This document shows positions 14,745-24,803 of a stretch of 28,193 bases of DNA, piece after piece. Numbering within the stretch: the first letter of the stretch is position 1; each line of letters begins with the position of its first letter. Source of the DNA: a virus; the IMG/VR virus record IMGVR_UViG_3300025769_000632, positions 1 to 28,193 of that record; one strand, written 5' to 3'. The position numbers and the translations under genes are program-made. The notes below the pieces were generated by a model, which was not told the DNA's origin, did not search any database, and worked only from the letters and a program-made list of their open reading frames with translations.

Positions 14745-17108
14745 ATGGCAGAAAGAATAGTAAGTCCTGGTGTATTTACAAGAGAAAAGGACTTGTCATT
14801 TCTACCTCAAGGGATTGGTGAAATCGGAGCAGCATTAATCGGGTCTACAGTTAAAGGACCTGCATTCGTTCCAACACAGGTACAATCTTTCCAAGAGTTT
14901 CAGCAAGTGTTCGGTGGATTGACAGAAGATTCATATCTACCATATACTGCTCAATCTTATTTGGAAGATGCCGGAACTGCAACAATCGTAAGGGTATTAG
15001 GACAAGGTGGATACACACTCGAAAACCCAGTGGCATTGACAGTATCATCATCGTATGGTAGTAAAGTAGTAGCAGTACTACACCCAACAACACAAATCGT
15101 AACAGATACAGATGTATTTAAATCATCATCAATTACAGACCACAATGGTTCAGCTAATGTATCAGCATCATTGTTCACATTAACATTGAGTGGTTCTGAA
15201 GCAACCGTAGCTAATTACTCAGCATCTTTAAATCCTACAAATGATAACTACTTTACTAAGTTATTTGGATTTGGAGCTAGAGGTTCTGAAGATGCATATG
15301 TACTATCAAACTTCAAAACATTCCAATCTGCTTCATTTGCAATGGGTGGTGAGATTCCTGTAGTAACAATTGATGTTGCTAAAGATATTGATTACTCAAA
15401 AGCATATACTGAAGCAGCTACTCCTTGGATTACTTCACAAAAAGTTGGTGGTAACACAACTAACTTAGTTAAGTTCCATACGTTATCACATGGTAATCCA
15501 ACTAACTACGAATTCAAAGTGGGTATCCAAGATATCAAACCAGCTGGAACTGTTGCAGGTTCTGAGTATGGTTCATTCACTGTAGTGGTTAGAAGAGTAG
15601 ACCAAGACAAAATTAGTGGAACTCCATTCGTAGGTGTGGTTGATTCAGATATCAGACCTAACTTAGTAGAATCATTCCAAAATGTTAACTTAGACCCTGA
15701 TTCACCAAACTATATCGCAAGAGTGATTGGTGATAAGTACATTACTGTTGATGCAAATGGTAAATTATCAACTAATGGTGATTACCCTAACAATTCAGCA
15801 AATATCAGAGTTGAAGTATCAACTGCTGTTGCTAACAAAGGTATCGATGTATCATTAGTACCATTTGGATTCGCAGCACTACAAAATCCGTATGGAAGTA
15901 AGTTCGCATTACCAAACCCATCATACGTTGTATCACAATCAATCAACGCATCTTACAATGAGAAGGCATTCTTAGGATATAACTTTGATTTCGCTACAAC
16001 TGATAACTTAAACTTCTTAGCACCAACACCTGATTCGGCAACTGCTACTGTAGGTACTGCATTCTACTTAGGTGATTGTCGTGATGAATCGGCTGGTGTA
16101 TCTGTAGCACTAAGCGGAACATTATCAGCTAAGAAATTCTTAGTACCATTCCAAGGTGGTTTTGATGGATACAAACCAAACAGAGTTGTTAAGACTGGTA
16201 ATGATATCATTGCAGGAAACACACAAGGATGGGATTGTTCTTCAAACACAGCAACAGGTACTGTGGCATTTAGAAAAGCAATCAATTCAGTATCTAACCC
16301 AGATGAGTTTGATATCAATATGTTGGTAATCCCTGGTCTTATCCACAGATTACACTCTTCAGTAACCACATTCGCTAAAGATATGTGTGAAGATAGACAA
16401 GATACATTCTTTGTAATGGATGCATCCGCATGGGGCGATTCAATCGCAACTGCAACTAACGCAGTTCAGTCATTTGATTCAAACTATGTAGCATCTTACT
16501 ACCCTTGGGTTAAGATTCTTAACACAGATAAGAACAAACCAGTATGGGTGCCACCATCAGTAGTTCTACCAGGCGTTATCGCATTTAACGACCAGGTTGC
16601 CGCTGAGTGGTTCGCTCCAGCAGGTTTGAATAGAGGTGGTTTAACTTCAGTTATCGAAGCTAAGACACGTTTGACAAGAACTGAGAGAGATACACTTTAC
16701 GAAGGTAGATTGAATCCAATCGCTACGTTCCCAGGTCAGGGTGTTACGGTATTCGGACAGAAAACACTACAAGCTAAACCATCAGCATTGGATAGAATCA
16801 ATGTAAGAAGATTGTTAATTGCTGTTAAGAAGTTCATCGCTTCTTCAACTCGTTACTTAGTGTTCGAAAACAACACAGCGGCTACGAGAAACAGATTCTT
16901 ATCAATCGTTAACCCTTACTTGGAATCAATCCAACAAAGACAAGGTTTATACGCATTCCGTGTTGTAATGGATGAAACTAACAACACACCAGACGTAATC
17001 GATAGAAACGTTATGGTGGGTGAGATTTTCTTACAACCAGCTAAGACAGCGGAATTCATAGTTCTTGACTTCAATGTATTACCAACTGGGGCAGCATTTC
17101 CAGAGTAA
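14745..17108 (+). CDS. Contractile tail sheath protein, T4 gp18-like
   Basis: 787 residues (T4 gp18 is 659). The N-terminus MAERIVSPGVFTREKDLSFL, with GIGAALIGSTVKGPAFVPT-type sequence (here EIGAALIGSTVKGPAFVP) and VQSFQEFQQVFGG, is the standard sheath signature. The conserved C-terminal domain is intact: KTRLTRTERDTLYEGRLNPI, GQGVTVFGQKTLQ, LDRINVRRLLIAVKKFI, ENNTAATRNRFLSIVNPYLE and the final FIVLDFNVLPTGAAF. It polymerises around the tail tube and contracts to drive the tube through the envelope. The extra 130 or so residues fall in the middle surface-exposed region. AGGAG at 14734, six bases from the ATG, fixes the start. One of the best ribosome sites in the window, fitting an abundant protein. 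Confidence 0.97.
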   Translation: MAERIVSPGVFTREKDLSFLPQGIGEIGAALIGSTVKGPAFVPTQVQSFQEFQQVFGGLTEDSYLPYTAQSYLEDAGTATIVRVLGQGGYTLENPVALTVSSSYGSKVVAVLHPTTQIVTDTDVFKSSSITDHNGSANVSASLFTLTLSGSEATVANYSASLNPTNDNYFTKLFGFGARGSEDAYVLSNFKTFQSASFAMGGEIPVVTIDVAKDIDYSKAYTEAATPWITSQKVGGNTTNLVKFHTLSHGNPTNYEFKVGIQDIKPAGTVAGSEYGSFTVVVRRVDQDKISGTPFVGVVDSDIRPNLVESFQNVNLDPDSPNYIARVIGDKYITVDANGKLSTNGDYPNNSANIRVEVSTAVANKGIDVSLVPFGFAALQNPYGSKFALPNPSYVVSQSINASYNEKAFLGYNFDFATTDNLNFLAPTPDSATATVGTAFYLGDCRDESAGVSVALSGTLSAKKFLVPFQGGFDGYKPNRVVKTGNDIIAGNTQGWDCSSNTATGTVAFRKAINSVSNPDEFDINMLVIPGLIHRLHSSVTTFAKDMCEDRQDTFFVMDASAWGDSIATATNAVQSFDSNYVASYYPWVKILNTDKNKPVWVPPSVVLPGVIAFNDQVAAEWFAPAGLNRGGLTSVIEAKTRLTRTERDTLYEGRLNPIATFPGQGVTVFGQKTLQAKPSALDRINVRRLLIAVKKFIASSTRYLVFENNTAATRNRFLSIVNPYLESIQQRQGLYAFRVVMDETNNTPDVIDRNVMVGEIFLQPAKTAEFIVLDFNVLPTGAAFPE

Positions 17109-17204: not shown

Positions 17205-17693
17205 ATGGCACAATTATTAGACCCAACAGAAGTAATGTTCACATCATTCGAACCGAAGATGTCGAACAGGTTCATTATGTACATCGAAGGAATTCCAGCG
17301 TACTTAGTGAAAGCGGCCAACAGACCTGAGATAACAAATGGTAAAGTTACCATTGACCACATTAACGTTAGAAGATACGTGAAGGGTAGAAGTGAGTGGA
17401 GTGATTTAGCAATTTCATTGTACGACCCAGTAGTTCCATCAGCAGCACAAGCCGCAATGGAGTGGGTACGTTTACATCACGAATCTGTAACTGGTAGAGA
17501 CGGTTACTCTGATTTCTACAAGAAGGATATCACATTTAACAGTTTGGGTCCTGTTGGTGATAAAGTAGAAGAGTGGACGTTGAAGGGAGCTTACATCCAA
17601 ACGGCTAAGTTCTCAGATATGGATTACACAGGTGAAGATTTAGCAACTGTAGATTTGACACTTACATACGATTACGCAATACTACAATATTAA
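17205..17693 (+). CDS. Tail tube protein, T4 gp19-like
   Basis: 162 residues, almost the length of T4 gp19 (163). Begins MAQLLDPTEVMFTSFEPKMS with NRFIMYIEGIPAYLVKAANRP next, the conserved tube start (NRF......IPA.L.K...RP). Further matches: SEWSDLAISLYDPVVPSAAQ, MEWVRLHHESVTGRDGYSDF, KKDITFNSLGPVGDKVEEW and the ending DLTLTYDYAIL. The protein stacks as hexameric rings to make the inner tube around which the sheath is built. AGGAG at 17194 is six bases from the start codon, as for the sheath. It has its own promoter-like site and is followed by its own terminator, so the sheath-to-tube ratio can be set separately. Confidence 0.95.
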   Translation: MAQLLDPTEVMFTSFEPKMSNRFIMYIEGIPAYLVKAANRPEITNGKVTIDHINVRRYVKGRSEWSDLAISLYDPVVPSAAQAAMEWVRLHHESVTGRDGYSDFYKKDITFNSLGPVGDKVEEWTLKGAYIQTAKFSDMDYTGEDLATVDLTLTYDYAILQY

Positions 17694-17833: not shown

Positions 17834-18721
17834 ATGAGCACAGAAAAGCAATTACAAGATGAGTACACTGCACCAACTTCCAATCAGGAAATGGTGGAGA
17901 TGGCTAAACAACAATACGAACAACAGAAGGTATCTGATTATAAGTTCCCTACTGAAATCGTAGAGTTACCATCCAGAGGGTTGATATACCCACAGGATAA
18001 TCCACTTTCATCAGGAAAAGTGGAAATGAAATATATGACCGCAAAAGAAGAGGATATCCTTACAACACAGTCATATATCAAAGATGGTTCGGTATTAGAC
18101 CGATTGTTCCAATCCCTAATTATTTCAAATGGTGAAGGTAAGCCGGTCAAATACGTTGATATCACAATGGGTGATAAGAACGCAGTAATGATTGCCGCCA
18201 GAATCTTAGGTTATGGTAAGGATTACGAAGTTGAGATTGATGACCCAACCTCACCAGGAAATAAGCAAAAAGATGTTATTGATTTAACTCAATTCGAAGC
18301 AGTTGAGTACGATGGTTCAAATCAAACCGAACTAAACAAAAATGAATTTGAGTTTGAGTTACCACAATCCAAAAGAAAGATTACATTTTCGGCATTAACT
18401 GAAAGTAAGGAGCGAAAAATCAAACATCAGTTAGAGGATTCTAAGAAAGCCGCTCGCCGGATGAAAGATACAACCGACAGGCAACTTACGACGAGGTTAA
18501 AAAACACAATCACATCAGTTGATGGTGAAACCGACCAGAAGCTAATAAACGAATTTGTGGATAACGAATTATTTGCGGTAGACTCAAGGGCCCTCAGAGC
18601 GTACATAAATACAGTTGTTCCAGATGTTGATTTAACATATGAATTTATATCTGAGGAAACCGGGGAAAGGAGAGAGATGCTACTGCCGATGGATATCGGG
18701 TTTTTTTGGCCTAAATCCTAA
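17834..18721 (+). CDS. Baseplate hub/tail assembly protein, T4 gp26-like; frameshift donor
   Basis: 295 residues in the zero frame (T4 gp26 is 208). The signature is EIVELPSRGLIYPQ near residue 41-54 followed by VEMKYMTAKEEDILTTQSYI near 63-82 and then GDKNAVMIAARILGYGKDYE near 125, the pattern of T4-type baseplate gp26 proteins. The C-terminal half is charged and helical (KERKIKHQLEDSKKAARRMK). It sits between the tail tube and the tape measure, where long-tailed phages keep their tail assembly chaperone pair. The last codons pass through GGG TTT TTT TGG and stop 12 bases later, while the +1 frame continues into the next feature. An assembly-chaperone role is inferred. AAAGAG is the weak ribosome site. 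Confidence 0.8.
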   Translation: MSTEKQLQDEYTAPTSNQEMVEMAKQQYEQQKVSDYKFPTEIVELPSRGLIYPQDNPLSSGKVEMKYMTAKEEDILTTQSYIKDGSVLDRLFQSLIISNGEGKPVKYVDITMGDKNAVMIAARILGYGKDYEVEIDDPTSPGNKQKDVIDLTQFEAVEYDGSNQTELNKNEFEFELPQSKRKITFSALTESKERKIKHQLEDSKKAARRMKDTTDRQLTTRLKNTITSVDGETDQKLINEFVDNELFAVDSRALRAYINTVVPDVDLTYEFISEETGERREMLLPMDIGFFWPKS

Positions 18722-18914
18722 TTACAGAAAGCATCTTCACTCACAACTTTTTGATTTAATTTATCACGGAAATGGTGGATTTACATGGAATGATGTTTAT
18801 AATATGCCTGTTTGGGCTAGAACATTCTACATTACTAAAATTGTAGAATTTAAAGAAGCTGAAAAGAAGGCACATGATAAAGAAATGAAGAAAGCAAAAT
18901 CAAGAAGAAGATAA
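18639..18914 (+). CDS. Overlapping +1-frame gene, probable frameshift extension of the gp26-like protein
   Basis: The longest ATG in this frame is at 18639, but no ribosome site precedes it and its first 23 codons are out-of-frame gp26-like sequence. Meaningful sequence begins at the slip site: FFGLNPNYRKHLHSQLFDLI, then YHGNGGFTWNDVYNMPVWAR and TFYITKIVEF with a basic tail. This resembles the small gp51-type or gpT-type parts of tail assembly chaperones (...GGF....VYNMP..LR.FY...). A +1 shift at 18701-18707 would join 291 gp26-like residues to 68 residues from here, a 359-residue fusion. A -2 shift gives the same frame. The alternative is separate initiation at 18639. Confidence 0.72.
   Translation: MNLYLRKPGKGERCYCRWISGFFGLNPNYRKHLHSQLFDLIYHGNGGFTWNDVYNMPVWARTFYITKIVEFKEAEKKAHDKEMKKAKSRRR
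18698..18709 (+). promoter_or_regulatory. Candidate programmed frameshift / slippage site GGGTTTTTTTGG
   Basis: In the zero frame the codons are GGG TTT TTT TGG CCT AAA TCC TAA. A +1 move (or -2, or loss of one T by polymerase slippage) on the seven-T run reads GGG TTT TTT GGC CTA AAT CCT and enters the downstream frame. The run lies at the exact border where conserved-looking sequence passes from one frame to the other. Confidence 0.68.
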
Positions 18915-18918
18915 TATG

Positions 18919-18946
18919 AATACCCAACAATTTTGTTGGGTATTTC
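18919..18946 (+). terminator. Intrinsic terminator before the tape measure unit
   Basis: Ten- to eleven-pair stem, ATACCCAACA with TGTTGGGTAT, loop ATTT, then a T-rich tail TTTCTATATTTATA that merges with the next promoter element. Starts 5 bases after the frameshift extension. Confidence 0.85.
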
Positions 18947-18983: not shown

Positions 18984-19187
18984 ATGGCTAGACTTACAAA
19001 AACAAATTTAACAGAACATTTCAGAAACCAAGGGTTATCTGAAGGATTTATTGATAGGTTTTTCAAAAATATCAAAAAGCAGAACAAAGAAAAGGAACTT
19101 GAAAAGCTTACTCAAGACCCAGAGTATCAGAGAATCCTTAAAAAATACAACATAAAACCAGTAGACTGGAATCAGACATCTCTATAA
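18984..19187 (+). CDS. Small basic helical protein, 67 aa, unknown function
   Basis: The start is ATG 18984, because GGAG at 18972-18975 lies eight bases before it and the promoter element falls upstream; a longer frame from 18933 would run through the terminator and promoter. Sequence: MARLTKTNLTEHFRNQGLSE, then GFIDRFFKNIKKQNKEKELE and DPEYQRILKKYNIKPVDWNQ. It is charged, predicted all-helical, and looks like a small binding or assembly factor. It precedes the tape measure gene by 13 bases and must be co-expressed with it. Such small genes next to tape measure genes are common. Function unknown. Confidence 0.65.
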   Translation: MARLTKTNLTEHFRNQGLSEGFIDRFFKNIKKQNKEKELEKLTQDPEYQRILKKYNIKPVDWNQTSL

Positions 19188-19200
19188 TTTGAGTTTATAA

Positions 19201-21867
19201 ATGGCAGAAGATTTCAATAAAGATACACAAAAACGAATCGCAGCTGTAAAAGGTGAAGAGGCGATTCAAAGAAATCTGTCTGCCATATTGCAAGATAGGA
19301 TTACAAAGACTGGAAATCTAACCACTGCTCAAAAGGAGTTGATAGATGAGATAAAAGGTCAGAAGTCCTTGGAATCAAAACTCACATCAATACAAGAAAA
19401 GAAAAATGAGATAATTGAGAAGTATAAGGGTGTTAATAAAGATATTGGCATCGCACTACTTAAACAATTAGAGGATGCCGAAGAGTTAGTTAAGCAGGAG
19501 AAACAGCGTAAAGATTTAGCTGATGAAATAAATGGGTATTACGAAGATGCTAATGATAGTCTATACACCAGTTTAGGTACTATGGGTGATATGCTCAAAG
19601 CAGGTACTGGTATTGCTGCAGCTATGGCTCTATTCAAAGGATTAACTGAACAGATTGGAGCAGCATTTCAAAACACAATTGGATTCGCATCAGAACTAAA
19701 TAAAGAATTGGGTATGGATGGTGGGCAAGCAATGCTTCAGGGAATCAAAAACCTATCACCGGAGATTCTTTTTTCTAGATTTAGTGTAGAGGAGTTGAAT
19801 CAAGCAACTAAAGATTTTGCAGAAACAATGGGTACAACTGCTGGGTTAACGAACAATATGCGTAACGCAATGGCAGAAATGACTAAATTTGGTGTGGGTG
19901 GTGAAGATGCAGCTAAGTTAGCACAATCATTTGATAGTGCTACAGGTGATTCTCAACAACTAACTACCGACATCAAAAATATGGCTAAAGATGCGGGTGT
20001 GATGGCGAGTGGTGTATTCAAAGATTTAGGAGCTCAGCAGAGACGAATAGTGGGACTAACCGAAAAAGAAATAAAGTTACTCGCTAAAAAAACAATCGAA
20101 CTAAGTAAGCAAGGATTACACCTTTCAGATATGCAGGATATTGCTAATAATATGATGGATATCGAAAGTACTATGAAAGCTCAATCTAAAGCCAGAGTGA
20201 TGTTACAGGGTAAGTTAACACAAGACCAAATTCAGGGTATGGGTGCTATGCAGGCAGCCGCTTTAGAGTATCAGAGAACAGGCGACGAGAAAGCACTACA
20301 GAAAGCCATAGAACAGACCAAGATGTCCGCTGAACAATTCGCCGAGCTCGGACCACGTGGGCAAGAGGTATATGCGGAAGCTATTGGTGTGAGTGCTGAT
20401 AAGTTAGCAGAGATGATTCAAATTCAAAGTGCAACTGTTACCGAATCTGGCCCACTAGCCGATGCCGCATCGACCGCAATGGAACTGTGGGAAAGAGTAC
20501 CTGGTGGTTTAAAAGAAGCAACTACTGGATTGATTGCATACATCGCACAAATGGCTATCCTAAATACTATGCAGGGTAGAGGTACAGGTCTTGGTAATCT
20601 GAATCCATTTAAGAAAAAAGGTGGCGGTGGTGGTGGAGTTCCAGGAATGGAATCTACACAAGATGCCGGAGGGCAAGCAGGTCAAGCCGCACAAGGTAGT
20701 GGTGGTGGATTAAAATCATTAGCCGATGGTTTAAGAGAAATGGGTGATGCTAAAGTATTAGCAGGTGTTGGTGTAGTTGCATTAGCAGGGCCAGCATTTG
20801 TTATAGCACTTCCATCCATCCCATTCCTATTGTTTATGGGTAAAGTTAAACTAAAGGCATTGGAAGAAAATTTTGGAAGTTTGGGTAGAGGTTTGGCTCA
20901 AATGCCACAAGGTGCGTTAGGTGCATTAACAATGATGTTAGTGGGACCGGCACTTGCGGTAGGACTATTAGCAATTCCATTCTTAGCATTCATGTCCATC
21001 CCAGCAACTGGACCTATAATTCAAGCAAACTTTACAGCATTAGCCGCTGGTTTAGCAGCATTTGGTAATCCGGGTACGGCTGTGTTTGTATTAATTGGTA
21101 TTGGATTGATGGCAGCATTAGGTGCGGCTATGATTCCATTCGCATTCGCATTATCTTTGCTATCACCATTAATAGAGGCATTTGGTAATGTTATTGTAGG
21201 TGTTATGAGTGCAGTTCCACCAATCATTCAGGCAATAGCCGATGGATTTGTAACAATGTTAGGTGCGATAACACCAGAAGCAATCGCAGGATTGTTACTA
21301 TTAGGACCTGCTTTGATGCTGGCATCGGTTGGTATGTTGGCATTCTCAGCATCATTATTAGTAGGTGCATTTGCTAGTTGGTTTGGTGGTGGATTAGTAG
21401 ACCAAATAGTAGAATTATCAAAAGTTGGACCAGGAGTTAAAGATGCTGGTGATGGGTTGGCAGCGGTGGCAGATAATATGTCGATAGTTACCGAATCTAT
21501 GAGTGGTATGGGTGATTTAGTATCACCAATGTTCCAATTATCAAGCGCATTATATTCTATAAGTGGTGGATTGGTAGCAGTTGCTGGTGCGGGATTACTC
21601 GCAATACCAATATTCGGTGCAATAGCTGGATTGGCAGCTCTAGCACCTACATTAATGGGTCTTGGTGAGTTCTTCGGAATGGGTGGCGGTGATTCTGAGA
21701 GTTCAGATAGTAGTGGTGGTGGTAACGCAGAATTATTAGAAGAGATAAAAGGGTTACGCAGTGATATTAAAGCACAACCTATTGTACTAAACATCGATGG
21801 TAAAGCAGTACAGAAGATAACAAGAGTACAAAGTAGACAGAGTGTATCAACAAGAGGATTTAGCTAA
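19201..21867 (+). CDS. Tape measure protein
   Basis: 888 residues. The N-terminal 110 residues are charged coiled coil (TTAQKELIDEIKGQKSLESK, QLEDAEELVKQEKQRKDL). Hydrophobic helices follow near 135 (TGIAAAMALFKGL), and residues about 515-800 are a long run of Ala/Gly/Leu-rich hydrophobic helices (for example AGVGVVALAGPAFVIALPSI, LGALTMMLVGPALAVGLLAI). A Gly-rich linker near 470-490 (KKKGGGGGGVPG) divides the halves. The size, pattern and position after tube and chaperone genes identify the tail-length ruler. It spans the tail lumen and is ejected on infection. At the usual 0.15 nm per residue, the tail would be around 130 nm, a rough estimate. Confidence 0.9.
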   Translation: MAEDFNKDTQKRIAAVKGEEAIQRNLSAILQDRITKTGNLTTAQKELIDEIKGQKSLESKLTSIQEKKNEIIEKYKGVNKDIGIALLKQLEDAEELVKQEKQRKDLADEINGYYEDANDSLYTSLGTMGDMLKAGTGIAAAMALFKGLTEQIGAAFQNTIGFASELNKELGMDGGQAMLQGIKNLSPEILFSRFSVEELNQATKDFAETMGTTAGLTNNMRNAMAEMTKFGVGGEDAAKLAQSFDSATGDSQQLTTDIKNMAKDAGVMASGVFKDLGAQQRRIVGLTEKEIKLLAKKTIELSKQGLHLSDMQDIANNMMDIESTMKAQSKARVMLQGKLTQDQIQGMGAMQAAALEYQRTGDEKALQKAIEQTKMSAEQFAELGPRGQEVYAEAIGVSADKLAEMIQIQSATVTESGPLADAASTAMELWERVPGGLKEATTGLIAYIAQMAILNTMQGRGTGLGNLNPFKKKGGGGGGVPGMESTQDAGGQAGQAAQGSGGGLKSLADGLREMGDAKVLAGVGVVALAGPAFVIALPSIPFLLFMGKVKLKALEENFGSLGRGLAQMPQGALGALTMMLVGPALAVGLLAIPFLAFMSIPATGPIIQANFTALAAGLAAFGNPGTAVFVLIGIGLMAALGAAMIPFAFALSLLSPLIEAFGNVIVGVMSAVPPIIQAIADGFVTMLGAITPEAIAGLLLLGPALMLASVGMLAFSASLLVGAFASWFGGGLVDQIVELSKVGPGVKDAGDGLAAVADNMSIVTESMSGMGDLVSPMFQLSSALYSISGGLVAVAGAGLLAIPIFGAIAGLAALAPTLMGLGEFFGMGGGDSESSDSSGGGNAELLEEIKGLRSDIKAQPIVLNIDGKAVQKITRVQSRQSVSTRGFS

Positions 21868-24803
21868 TGGCACTGAAAGATATGAAATCGGATTTGTCCA
21901 AGTTTAGAATGCCAAAGAAAGAACCTTTGGAATCTAAAAAGAGAGAGGATATAAAATCAAACCAGAACCAAACACCATTGAGTTCACTGGTAGATTCAGC
22001 GCCGAAAATCCCACGTTCCCAAACAACAACAAATAAAGAGGGTGTAAACCCAAATAAAGTTCAGCAGGGTGATAAGTTCAAAGGCGAAACATCAGCAACA
22101 CCTATGGATAACTCAGAGAAGTTCAAAGGCGAAACTACACCGACTCGAATGAGTTTGGAACAAAGATATTTAGGTCAGACTACACCAGAGAAGATGGATA
22201 ATTCACCAAACTACTTAGGTGAAACAAATCCACAAGCGATGGATAACTCAGAAAAATTCTTAGGGGAAACAACCCCATCAAAAATGGATTCATCAGAGCA
22301 GTTTTTAGGGGAAACTACTCCAAATCGTATGGATACATCGGAGAGATTTTTAGGTGAAACGAATCCATCTAAAATGGATAATTCTGAGAAATTCTTAGGG
22401 GAGACAACACCAAAAACAATGGATAATTCCGAAAATTATCTCGGAGAAACAACCCCTACATCAGCAGCACCACAATCTAAGTTTTTGGGTGAAACCAACC
22501 CAACTCCTATGGATAATACATCAAAATTCTTAGGCGAAACTACTCAGAAGTCAGCTGCACCAGAATCAAAATTCTTAGGAGAAACAACTCCAACTGAGAT
22601 GAACAATGAATCACAGTATTTAGGAGAAACAACACCAAATTCAGCTGCACCACAATCTCAGTACTTAGGAGAAACAACTCCAACTGAGATGAATAATCAA
22701 TCTCAGTACTTAGGTGAAACTACTCCAAGCGATATGGATTTGGGGGCACAATTCTTAGGTGAAACTACTCCAAGTGATATGAATTTAGGTGCACAGTTCT
22801 TAGGTGAAACGACTCCAAAGAATTTCAAAACCCCAAACAACAAAGATAAGCAGGCGGTTACTCCACCATCTGTGGATATGTTTACAAACGATAAGGCAAT
22901 TGGGTTTACTCAGAACTTTACTGATAAAACTAAAACCAAATTTGTTGGTATAAATCCCGATAATACTCAGTTTGATAATGTAAGTTCATTATATAGTAAC
23001 TTTAGTGGGGCATTTAACGGATTATCGTTCAGAGCTGGATATGGTAAGTTTAAGGTGGGTAAAGAAACTGGATTGACTCAGAGATATAACTTTGATACAA
23101 AGTATTATGTAGATACTGAATTAACAAATCCAAGCATATCCAAATTACATGAGATGAAGAACTCACCTTCATTCTTAGATGAAATGTATCACAAATATAA
23201 TCTTAGAGATGATGCATTTAATTTAGGAACGGCTGCGTTCGCACATCCATTGATTATGAGAGGTATTCAACGAAAGCCAATTGATAAAGGTGAACCACAA
23301 AAGTGGGGATTTGGATTCCCAGTCGATGACGGGTTGGTTAGAGGTGGTATTGTTACTGCAGTTGATAGGTCGGTAGTAGATGCTGTTAGACTTGGTAAGT
23401 GGATGATTTCTGTAAATGGATTGCTGTGGGGAATCAAAAATTTGGGGTTACAAGCATCTAATCCAAATGTGGAAACATTGACCGGTAAGAGGTTAACTAA
23501 AACTTGGACTCCAATTAACACAATCGCATCCGCAATTGGTGGATTTGTTGGATTACGACCAAAGAGACACGGATTCACTCCATTTGACCCTGAAGTTGAA
23601 ACTTATAGCGCAACACAAAAAGGTAAGAAATTAACTCATATTGATGATGTAACCCTTGGTGTTCCAGTTACTGGAAACCGATTGATACAATTGTACAATG
23701 AAACATTTACAATAGCAGCTAACACAATCAGTACGAGTAAATTTGTTGGTGAACAATTTAATACTCTAGCTCTTGGGACGGGCGGCCCTAACTCATTATA
23801 TGGGTTAATTCCGAATGGGTTATTACCATCTAGAAATGTAAGTACACTTCCAGATTTATTTAGCGGATATACAACCCAAAACCAATATAATCCAACTGAG
23901 GGTGGACCTAATCAATCAGGTTTGCCAGGCCTTCCATTTGAACCAGATAATACTGAGTTAGGATTAAATGCAAACAACCTACCAGATTCTTTTAAGAATA
24001 ATACTAAAAATACTGAAGGTACTATCCACCCATTAGAAAAGAATACAGCGGCCGCAGAAATCATAAAAAACTACGAAACAATCTCATATGGTAAGATACC
24101 AAAAAGAGTTGCTGGTGATACGACGTTCAACGATTTCAGAAATCTTTATGATGGTAATGGAAAGAAGCGAGCTGATAACCAAAACTACACAAACGATAAC
24201 ATAGAAGCTCGTGTAGGATTCCCATCTGCGCCAGCACATGGTACAGATAGAAGTGATAGAACTAAATCATTATCAAGTGATGCTGTACAAACATCTGCAA
24301 TTGGTGCTGAAGCACAAAATGATTTAATTAAACTACTATTTAATGTTTATGGTGGTGGCTCCCAAATACAATTCAGAGGTGCTGTGAGTGGTATTACAGA
24401 AACATTCTCACCATCTTGGGATTCGTTCAAATATAATGGTAGAGCTGACCAGGCATACAAATATTCTACGTTTGAGAGAAGTTTAAGTTTTAACTTTCAG
24501 GTGTATCCCACATCAAAAGCAGAGTTAAAACCACTATACACAAAATTAGAAAGATTATCATCGATGACGATGCCAACTTATGGTACAAAGGGGTATACTG
24601 GTACTTTGGTTACATTCACATTGGGTAATCTTTGGAAGAATAAATTATCATTCATTGAATCGCTATCATACACATTCTCTGATGAAGTACCTTGGGATGT
24701 GGATGAAGAAGCTTCAATGGGTATTGATGTGGCAATTGGAATGAAGATATTAGATGATGCGATTCCACAATATGCAATGTCTAACGTTTACGATTTGGGA
24801 TAA
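21867..24803 (+). CDS. Baseplate protein with 15-residue repeat array and tube/hub-like C-terminal domain
   Basis: 978 residues; its ATG shares the tape measure stop (TAATG). Residues 1-70 are basic and low complexity. Residues 71-325 are 16 full and one partial copies of a 15-residue repeat, consensus [FY]LGETTP..MDNSE., likely unstructured. Residues about 330-700 are a unique region (GFTQNFTDKTKTKFVGINP, VYGGGSQIQF later). Residues about 760-975 (FRGAVSGITETFSPSWDSFK, RADQAYKYSTFERSLSFNFQ, VTFTLGNLWKNKLSFIESLS) form a beta domain of a type found in baseplate and tube-initiator proteins next to LysM genes in contractile tails. Position between tape measure and LysM gene supports a baseplate hub role. 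I cannot name a T4 equivalent; gp48/gp54 are candidates. Confidence 0.75.
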   Translation: MALKDMKSDLSKFRMPKKEPLESKKREDIKSNQNQTPLSSLVDSAPKIPRSQTTTNKEGVNPNKVQQGDKFKGETSATPMDNSEKFKGETTPTRMSLEQRYLGQTTPEKMDNSPNYLGETNPQAMDNSEKFLGETTPSKMDSSEQFLGETTPNRMDTSERFLGETNPSKMDNSEKFLGETTPKTMDNSENYLGETTPTSAAPQSKFLGETNPTPMDNTSKFLGETTQKSAAPESKFLGETTPTEMNNESQYLGETTPNSAAPQSQYLGETTPTEMNNQSQYLGETTPSDMDLGAQFLGETTPSDMNLGAQFLGETTPKNFKTPNNKDKQAVTPPSVDMFTNDKAIGFTQNFTDKTKTKFVGINPDNTQFDNVSSLYSNFSGAFNGLSFRAGYGKFKVGKETGLTQRYNFDTKYYVDTELTNPSISKLHEMKNSPSFLDEMYHKYNLRDDAFNLGTAAFAHPLIMRGIQRKPIDKGEPQKWGFGFPVDDGLVRGGIVTAVDRSVVDAVRLGKWMISVNGLLWGIKNLGLQASNPNVETLTGKRLTKTWTPINTIASAIGGFVGLRPKRHGFTPFDPEVETYSATQKGKKLTHIDDVTLGVPVTGNRLIQLYNETFTIAANTISTSKFVGEQFNTLALGTGGPNSLYGLIPNGLLPSRNVSTLPDLFSGYTTQNQYNPTEGGPNQSGLPGLPFEPDNTELGLNANNLPDSFKNNTKNTEGTIHPLEKNTAAAEIIKNYETISYGKIPKRVAGDTTFNDFRNLYDGNGKKRADNQNYTNDNIEARVGFPSAPAHGTDRSDRTKSLSSDAVQTSAIGAEAQNDLIKLLFNVYGGGSQIQFRGAVSGITETFSPSWDSFKYNGRADQAYKYSTFERSLSFNFQVYPTSKAELKPLYTKLERLSSMTMPTYGTKGYTGTLVTFTLGNLWKNKLSFIESLSYTFSDEVPWDVDEEASMGIDVAIGMKILDDAIPQYAMSNVYDLG
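22077..22841 (+). repeat. 45-bp (15-codon) tandem repeat array, 16 units plus a partial
   Basis: Each unit encodes [FY]LGE[TN][TN]P followed by MDNSE-type sequence (FLGETTPSKMDSSEQ, FLGETTPNRMDTSER). Units 9, 11 and 13 carry an SAAP[QE]S variant at the second half, alternating with M-type units in that stretch. DNA differs mainly at third codon positions, so the peptide is under selection. Confidence 0.95.

Follow-up and report, generated by a model that had tools for sequence, protein, structure and literature searches.

A probable +1 ribosomal frameshift in a gp26-like tail assembly chaperone gene and its relatives

Introduction

Phage T4 gp26 and gp51 are named as hub assembly chaperones in the available part of a 2010 review (PMC3004832). 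Recoding of tail chaperone genes by −1, −2 and +1 shifts is known in other phages, as described in the accessible sections of PMC5009743. According to an excerpt of the PRFect paper, which cites Vladimirov et al. 2022, some T4-like phages obtain both chaperone forms from two genes (PMC10885494), and poly-T −1 signals in T4-like chaperone genes are cited in an excerpt of PMC12846349. A two-gene chaperone form has also been proposed for phage 0305phi8-36 in the portion seen of PMC2147016.

The locus described here lies in a 28,193-nucleotide stretch of viral DNA (IMG/VR record IMGVR_UViG_3300025769_000632), the whole of which we call the window. A first-pass annotation had proposed that a programmed +1 (or −2) frameshift joins a gp26-like protein to a downstream extension, in the manner of lambda gpG/gpGT. 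Our comparative evidence supports a programmed +1 shift of this kind.

Results

Layout of the locus

The chaperone locus lies in a run of tail genes on the plus strand, with the following features:

14745..17108, + strand: tail sheath protein (phrog_23, 8.2e-70; PF04984, PF17482)
17205..17693, + strand: tail tube protein (phrog_4542, 5.2e-23; PF06841 gp19 at 1.1e-4, below the curated cut-off)
17834..18721, + strand: putative short chaperone, gp26-like, and N-terminal part of the proposed long form (295 aa; phrog_150)
18639..18641, + strand: ATG opening the listed +1-frame ORF, inside the gp26-like gene and probably no start
18701..18712, + strand: predicted shift site TTT TTT TGG CCT
18704-18706 and 18707-18709, + strand: proposed P-site codon UUU and A-site codon UGG, with a predicted +1 slip from UUU_U to UUU
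18708..18914, + strand: +1-frame C-terminal extension, GLNPNYRKHL...KSRRR (68 aa), the T-like part of the proposed long form
18918..18945, + strand: terminator-like hairpin just past the extension stop (12-pair stem)
18984..19187 (from 18933 with a TTG start), + strand: small ORF separating the extension from the presumed tape measure gene (67 to 84 aa by start)
19201..21867, + strand: presumed tape measure protein (888 aa; by position and size only)

At the junction the zero frame reads GGG TTT TTT TGG CCT AAA TCC TAA, with GGG at 18698, the T7 run at 18701-18707 and the stop at 18719-18721. The +1 frame holds 68 open codons, from GGC at 18708 to the stop at 18912-18914. The ORF layout is thus as the first-pass annotation had claimed, and the fusion of the two parts would be 359 aa long. 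There is no other T7 on the plus strand of the window. The length of the extension was dropped as evidence: 68 codons ranks only third among 50 ORF-end/frame tests in the window, and length by itself is weak proof because two other off-frame openings are longer (233 and 217 codons). The evidence, taken from sequence comparison, is instead the conservation of the extension and its codon pattern.

The overlapping ORFs in two frames, with a conserved offset, lie between the tail tube gene and, judged by position, the tape measure gene. A tail tube gene is found upstream in all 75 loci with enough flank among the matches listed. The presumed tape measure protein had no confident PHROG or Pfam match, and its N-terminus was recognised downstream in 44 of 75 loci. 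Of the 75 loci whose flank is 350 nt or longer, 44 contain a match to the small ORF, beginning 45-81 nt past the extension stop. The placement of the chaperone between tail tube and presumed tape measure therefore stands, but it is not immediately before the tape measure as first described, since the small ORF intervenes. In 79 of 80 sequences (best 80 of at least 599 matches), the window among them, the stretch past the extension has a fold below −6 kcal/mol. Further downstream, at 21867-24803, the window carries a 978-aa ORF without a PHROG or Pfam match, and its first third includes degenerate repeats of 45 nt (15 aa) built around the core LGETTP.

Conservation among close relatives

As close relatives we took the 80 best of at least 599 IMG/VR matches. 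All 80 carry TTTTTTTGGCCT at the junction, in a set skewed toward FFW because one of its six search patterns, PMDIGFFW, overlaps the junction. The patterns used for the wider family had no such overlap. The +1 extension is open in 80/80 of these best-matching loci and is 65-72 aa long, apart from the 51 aa in L078, which the contig end cuts; in the −1 frame these loci are extended by 2 to 46 aa. Three of the relatives (L001-L003) may be the same virus as the window, because they are 100% identical to it across the 295-aa query. Among the matches listed, 57 distinct window-clade sequences have 22, 13 and 43 variable sites at the first, second and third codon positions of the extension frame.

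The point of the shift can be bracketed by stops. Fourteen loci of the window clade, and one that is immuto-like, have a +1-frame stop 2 nt before the T run; the zero-frame stop comes as early as 15 nt past the run start (L075). The shift interval is 20 nt from L004 alone and 17 nt when the loci are combined.

Direction of the shift in the wider family

In the wider family, we searched the three frames surrounding every gp26-like stop with an HMM of the extension. Immuto-like loci had the extension in the +1 frame in 79/79 cases with a stop (80 retrieved, one open), Mel-JY01-like loci in 78/78 (80 retrieved, two open, 22 previously counted) and SP-15-like loci in 2/2. Among LR756508-like loci it was in the +1 frame in 16 of the 18 with a stop (20 retrieved, two open). 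The two exceptions, L279 and L284, have a separate ORF with an ATG just past the first stop, and their slip sites are altered to TTC TTG TAT CCT and TTC CTT TGG CCA, respectively. L086, too, has the extension as a distinct ORF that starts at an ATG of its own.

In Melnitz/cyanophage-like loci, U_UUU_UUN was followed by a −1-frame extension in 78/78 testable cases (80 retrieved, one at a contig end and one open), and the sole relative from the GXN1 query was also −1. Named phages with the +1 offset are Mel-JY01, immuto, LR756508, LIS04, GXN1 and SP-15; those with −1 are Melnitz, XacN1, Syn1, S-H9-1, phiN3, Yut2, Aeh1, SE14, KP6, D531 and PG216, with weaker −1 sites in SE14, KP6 and D531. In phiN3, Yut2, D531 and PG216 an ATG overlaps the stop as well, so coupled initiation may occur there. 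LR756511 has a separate overlapping ORF. Folding of the −1 clade (L107-L186) at 12-72 nt past the slip site is more stable than shuffles (mean z −1.67, n=40), and this RNA structure is a possible −1 stimulator.

A tree of 53 N-terminal domains, with the root at midpoint, is divided by a single deep split (100/100). On one side are the 24 sampled +1 proteins together with XacN1 (−1) and LR756511 (separate gene), the latter two weakly placed (support 86/20). The other side holds the remaining 18 −1 proteins, and T-even gp26 and gp51 form one nested clade in it (98/97). On these sequences, the +1 direction appears to characterise a deep branch within the family rather than this phage alone. In the simplest reading, the T-evens would have replaced the −1 frameshift by duplication.

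The slip site

In the window clade, 55/55 distinct slip sites among the matches listed are TTTTTTTGGCCT. The 69 distinct immuto-like sites comprise TTTTTTTGGCCT (35), TTTCTTTGGCCT (29), TTTCTATGGCCT (4) and TTTCTTTACCCT (1); the 13 distinct +1 sites of LR756508-like loci are TTCTTTTGGCCT (11) and TTTTTTTGGCCT (2), and the 50 new Mel-JY01-like sites are TTTTTTTGGCCT (45), CTTTTTTGGCCT (3) and TTTTTTTACCCT (2). Common to the +1 sites is a YUU codon directly before a U-initial codon, nearly always UGG, and then CCU. Across the four close +1 groups, almost every site has UUU or CUU before UGG (rarely UAC), and the P-site codon can re-pair one base 3′; this codon is UUU in the window. The exception is CTA TGG in 4 of 69 immuto-like sequences, where a CUA_U slip pairs poorly. 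LR756508, SP-15, LIS04 and GXN1 themselves lack the shared UGG. Judged by pairing, the shared site permits a forward P-site slip to UUU except at the CUA sites, and it resembles CUU_UGA of RF2.

The base before the U-run differs between the clades, although these counts are inflated by kinship of the sequences and no naive probabilities were used as tests. The codon before the run ends in T in 0/55 distinct window-clade sequences (28.5 expected from codon usage) and 0/69 distinct immuto-like sequences (33.2 expected), versus 65/65 in the −1 clade (42.3 expected). In the new Mel-JY01-like set it ends in U in none of the 47 distinct sequences scored. The rule is seen with different codons for several amino acids. 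It fails in the LR756508-like set because GGT precedes the Phe pair TTC TTT in 4 of 13 distinct sites, although GGT TTC TTT is not a −1 heptamer. A canonical −1 heptamer X_XXY_YYZ, with U before in-frame UUU UUN, was found in 0/55 window-clade and 0/69 immuto-like sites. Among the commonest 18-nt stretches before the run, which end in GGG, ACC, AGC or GGC, no constant AGGGGG-like SD element was seen by eye. RNA structure was rejected as a +1 stimulator, since folding downstream of the site in the window clade did not exceed that of shuffles (mean z +1.03, n=40).

Alternative explanations

A homopolymer of seven invites the suspicion of a sequencing or assembly error, with both parts truly in one frame. 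This explanation is improbable in the extreme. The junction is identical in 80/80 metagenomic contigs (best 80 of at least 599), and deposited phage genomes show the same offset. An error in a single genome is excluded because offset and 12-base string recur in all 80 relatives along with a conserved extension; these relatives keep both parts out of frame, which refutes the one-frame reading raised in the first-pass annotation. The extension could also be a separate gene with its own start, as the annotations of relatives suggest. Those of Mel-JY01, immuto and SP-15 split it off at least partly, LR756511 shows a TAATG overlap, the two LR756508-like exceptions have an ATG right past the first stop, and 37 of 57 distinct window-clade sequences carry some in-frame ATG upstream of the run. 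We give this explanation a slight chance for the window. Neither an ATG after the run nor an ATG with an SD-like site occurs in any of the 57 distinct window-clade sequences among the matches listed, in agreement with the earlier claim that there is no ribosome site for a separate start. Only 2 of the 57 have some start with an SD-like site, 20 lack any extension-frame ATG before the conserved GG[FY] motif, and 10 lack ATG, GTG and TTG alike before it. Moreover, the slip site is where the alignment of the extensions begins. For the immuto-like clade the case against separate starts is less clear, and separate initiation may occur there: an SD-like site accompanies some start in 35 of 66 sequences and an ATG in 5 of 66; an ATG follows the run in 14 of 66, and 5 of 66 have no start at all.

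Two other kinds of slippage would reach the same frame. RNA polymerase slippage on the T7 run, with one U lost or two gained, would bring part of the mRNA into frame, and a −2 ribosomal frameshift would give GFFFGLN in place of GFFGLN. The T7 run present in 80/80 close relatives (best 80 of at least 599) and a small hairpin at 18686-18699 ahead of the run in the window are consistent with the former. The U7 of the window permits the latter, and −2 shifting is known in phage Mu according to the sections seen of PMC5009743. Both are made less likely by the many +1 relatives whose site is only TTT CTT TGG or TTC TTT TGG. Of the distinct immuto-like sites, 29/69 read TTTCTTTGG and 4 read TTTCTATGG, and 11 of 13 distinct LR756508-like sites read TTCTTTTGG, so no long homopolymer is required. 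The T7 itself is not kept in the wider set, while the +1 offset is kept in all 80 close relatives and in the wider +1 relatives. Upstream folding in the clade is also no better than that of shuffles (mean z +0.78, n=40), and we consider transcriptional slippage unlikely, against its mention as an alternative in the first-pass annotation. By our reading of the pairing, a −2 slip would force the P-site tRNA to re-pair with UCU at UUC UUU UGG and would pair poorly at UUU CUU UGG, whereas a single +1 slip at YUU_U suits nearly all sites in the four close +1 groups. Of the two directions first proposed, +1 is thus supported and −2 is left with a similarly low probability to that of transcriptional slippage.

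Protein family and structure

The N-terminal part of the window protein matches phrog_150 'baseplate hub' (E=1.8e-8) and had no Pfam match of its own; PF12322 (T4_baseplate) is matched by 28 of 54 aligned relatives at E<=0.01. T4 gp26 and gp51 both match PF12322 and phrog_150. They are paralogues, and gp51 is the longer, reaching position 280 of the 282-position profile versus 235 for gp26. With the extension added, the match of the window to phrog_150 lengthens from position 233 to 271, with a small gain from 35.2 to 37.9 bits.

The extension can be linked to gp51 in two steps. The −1-type extensions of nine phages match the gp51 C-terminus (97% probability, E=5.1e-11), and window-type extensions match −1-type extensions (87%, E=3.7e-6) with a score of 31.8, which beats 200 column shuffles (maximum 19.3) and the reversed alignment. 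Direct homology to gp51 was kept only within this transitive chain. The window-extension profile matched gp51 weakly (11%, score 19.6, with 19.2 as the best of 200 shuffles), the whole-length profile more weakly still (0.6%), and BLASTP of the fused product against gp51 gave nothing significant. Through these intermediates only, the long form would carry a gp51-type C-terminal extension. Of 35 homologous extensions, 9 match phrog_634 'baseplate hub assembly catalyst' at E<=0.1 (lowest E 0.0028); that of the window had no match to it at that threshold.

The AF2 model of the short form has a pLDDT of 88.8, and that of the extension is of low confidence (66.6). In VIA-align, the best row for the short form is the HK97 tail assembly chaperone 2ob9 (95/107 residues, rmsd 4.7), with a weak Z of 4.2 that may reflect merely a common arrangement, and this resemblance of a predicted model is suggestive only. 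Foldseek of the short form against solved structures gave E 0.63 and prob 0.57 at best, with none at E<=0.001, and comparing an N-terminal profile HMM with the PDB yielded no match below E 0.065. Against predicted viral structures, the short form has 55 matches at E<=0.001, several of them named baseplate hub, including that of SP-15. By analogy, the role of the gene is likely that of a tail assembly chaperone pair like lambda gpG/gpGT. The first-pass annotation had likewise taken a T4-like hub gene to act as a tail assembly chaperone, which is supported; it is no departure from what is known, since gp26 and gp51 are already listed as chaperones in the part available of PMC3004832.

Discussion

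Judged from the comparative sequence data, the gene very probably gives rise to two forms of a tail assembly chaperone through a +1 ribosomal slip, with the extension carried by the long form. Most ribosomes would complete the 295-aa short form. A minority pausing on UGG would slip one base forward at the preceding UUU, with tRNA-Phe re-pairing from UUU to UUU across U_UUU, and would continue in the +1 frame. The slipped product would be the 359-aa long form with a helix-rich, T-like C-terminal part. From the analogous lambda gpG/gpGT and T4 gp26/gp51 pairs, we would expect the short form to cover the tape measure protein and the long form to bring in tube subunits.

A broader scenario can be sketched, which we put forward tentatively and consider rather doubtful as a whole. 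A deep gp26-type branch, spanning phages from marine and freshwater metagenomes to Firmicutes phages, would have kept a +1 shift; its environmental members would use YUU_UGG, with a Trp codon in place of the RF2 stop, and the base before the run would be selected against −1 slippage. The sister branch would shift −1, and the T-evens would have duplicated the gene. If this is true, the ratio of short to long form would respond to the supply of tRNA-Trp in the infected cell, and one chaperone family would have three interchangeable routes to two isoforms. Recoding is predicted on both sides of the T4 chaperone family, in opposite directions on two deep branches and with the opposite base before the run, which offers a natural experiment on the causes of forward and of backward ribosomal slippage at near-identical sequence.

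The results also bear on annotation, as small ORFs labelled 'gp51' or hypothetical in many cyanophage-like and environmental phages may be the C-termini of frameshift products. In Syn1 (L096:2768-2899), Melnitz (L090:5756-5899) and phiN3 (L098:2714-2875), the U_UUU_UUN of gp26 is followed in the −1 frame by small ORFs that carry the annotation gp51, 'baseplate hub assembly' or 'baseplate hub assembly catalyst'. These ORFs are probably the C-termini of −1 frameshift products, although the ATG of phiN3 also overlaps the stop.

The tail assembly chaperones of T4-like phages were reportedly identified by Vladimirov et al. in 2022 (Virology 566:9-15); −1 cases may be described there, and perhaps +1 cases too. 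In a limited search of open-licence PMC articles, in which '+1' is unsearchable, we found no report of +1 recoding in the gp26/gp51 family, which is weak evidence of absence, and none of a YUU_UGG site or of a rule for the base before the U-run. In the portions of the literature consulted, the two-gene chaperone pair of T4-like phages is already published, and the +1 branch, the YUU_UGG site and the base rule were not found in print.

Among known systems, the N-terminal part of the window protein belongs to the same family as the T4 hub and tail assembly chaperones gp26 and gp51 (PF12322, phrog_150). T4 gp51 has its own C-terminal extension, to which that of the window is linked through intermediates; T4 and the four relatives examined have two paralogous genes and, unlike the window, no extension following gp26. 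Kyanoviridae, Melnitz, phiN3, Aeh1 and the KVP40-like PG216 have the same two parts in different frames, meeting at the same FF motif. In these phages, however, the small 'gp51' ORF is in the −1 frame after U_UUU_UUN, whereas the shift in the window would be +1.

Lambda gpG/gpGT provides a short and a frameshifted long chaperone, as proposed here (PMC5009743, in the sections seen), but by a −1 shift, and the likeness is drawn here by description. Other than −1, tail chaperone recoding in the same excerpt (PMC5009743) is very likely +1 in HSTV-2 and −2 in Mu, likened here by description. Bacillus phage 0305phi8-36 gp143/gp144, also compared by description, uses no frameshift. The closest mechanistic parallel to the proposed slip is the forward P-site slip at a YUU_U sequence in E. 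coli prfB (RF2), which occurs at CUU_UGA according to the available part of PMC10274946. The CUU UGG of 29/69 immuto-like sites is one base off CUU UGA. Unlike the window, prfB has a stop in place of the sense codon, and no constant SD-like element was seen here.
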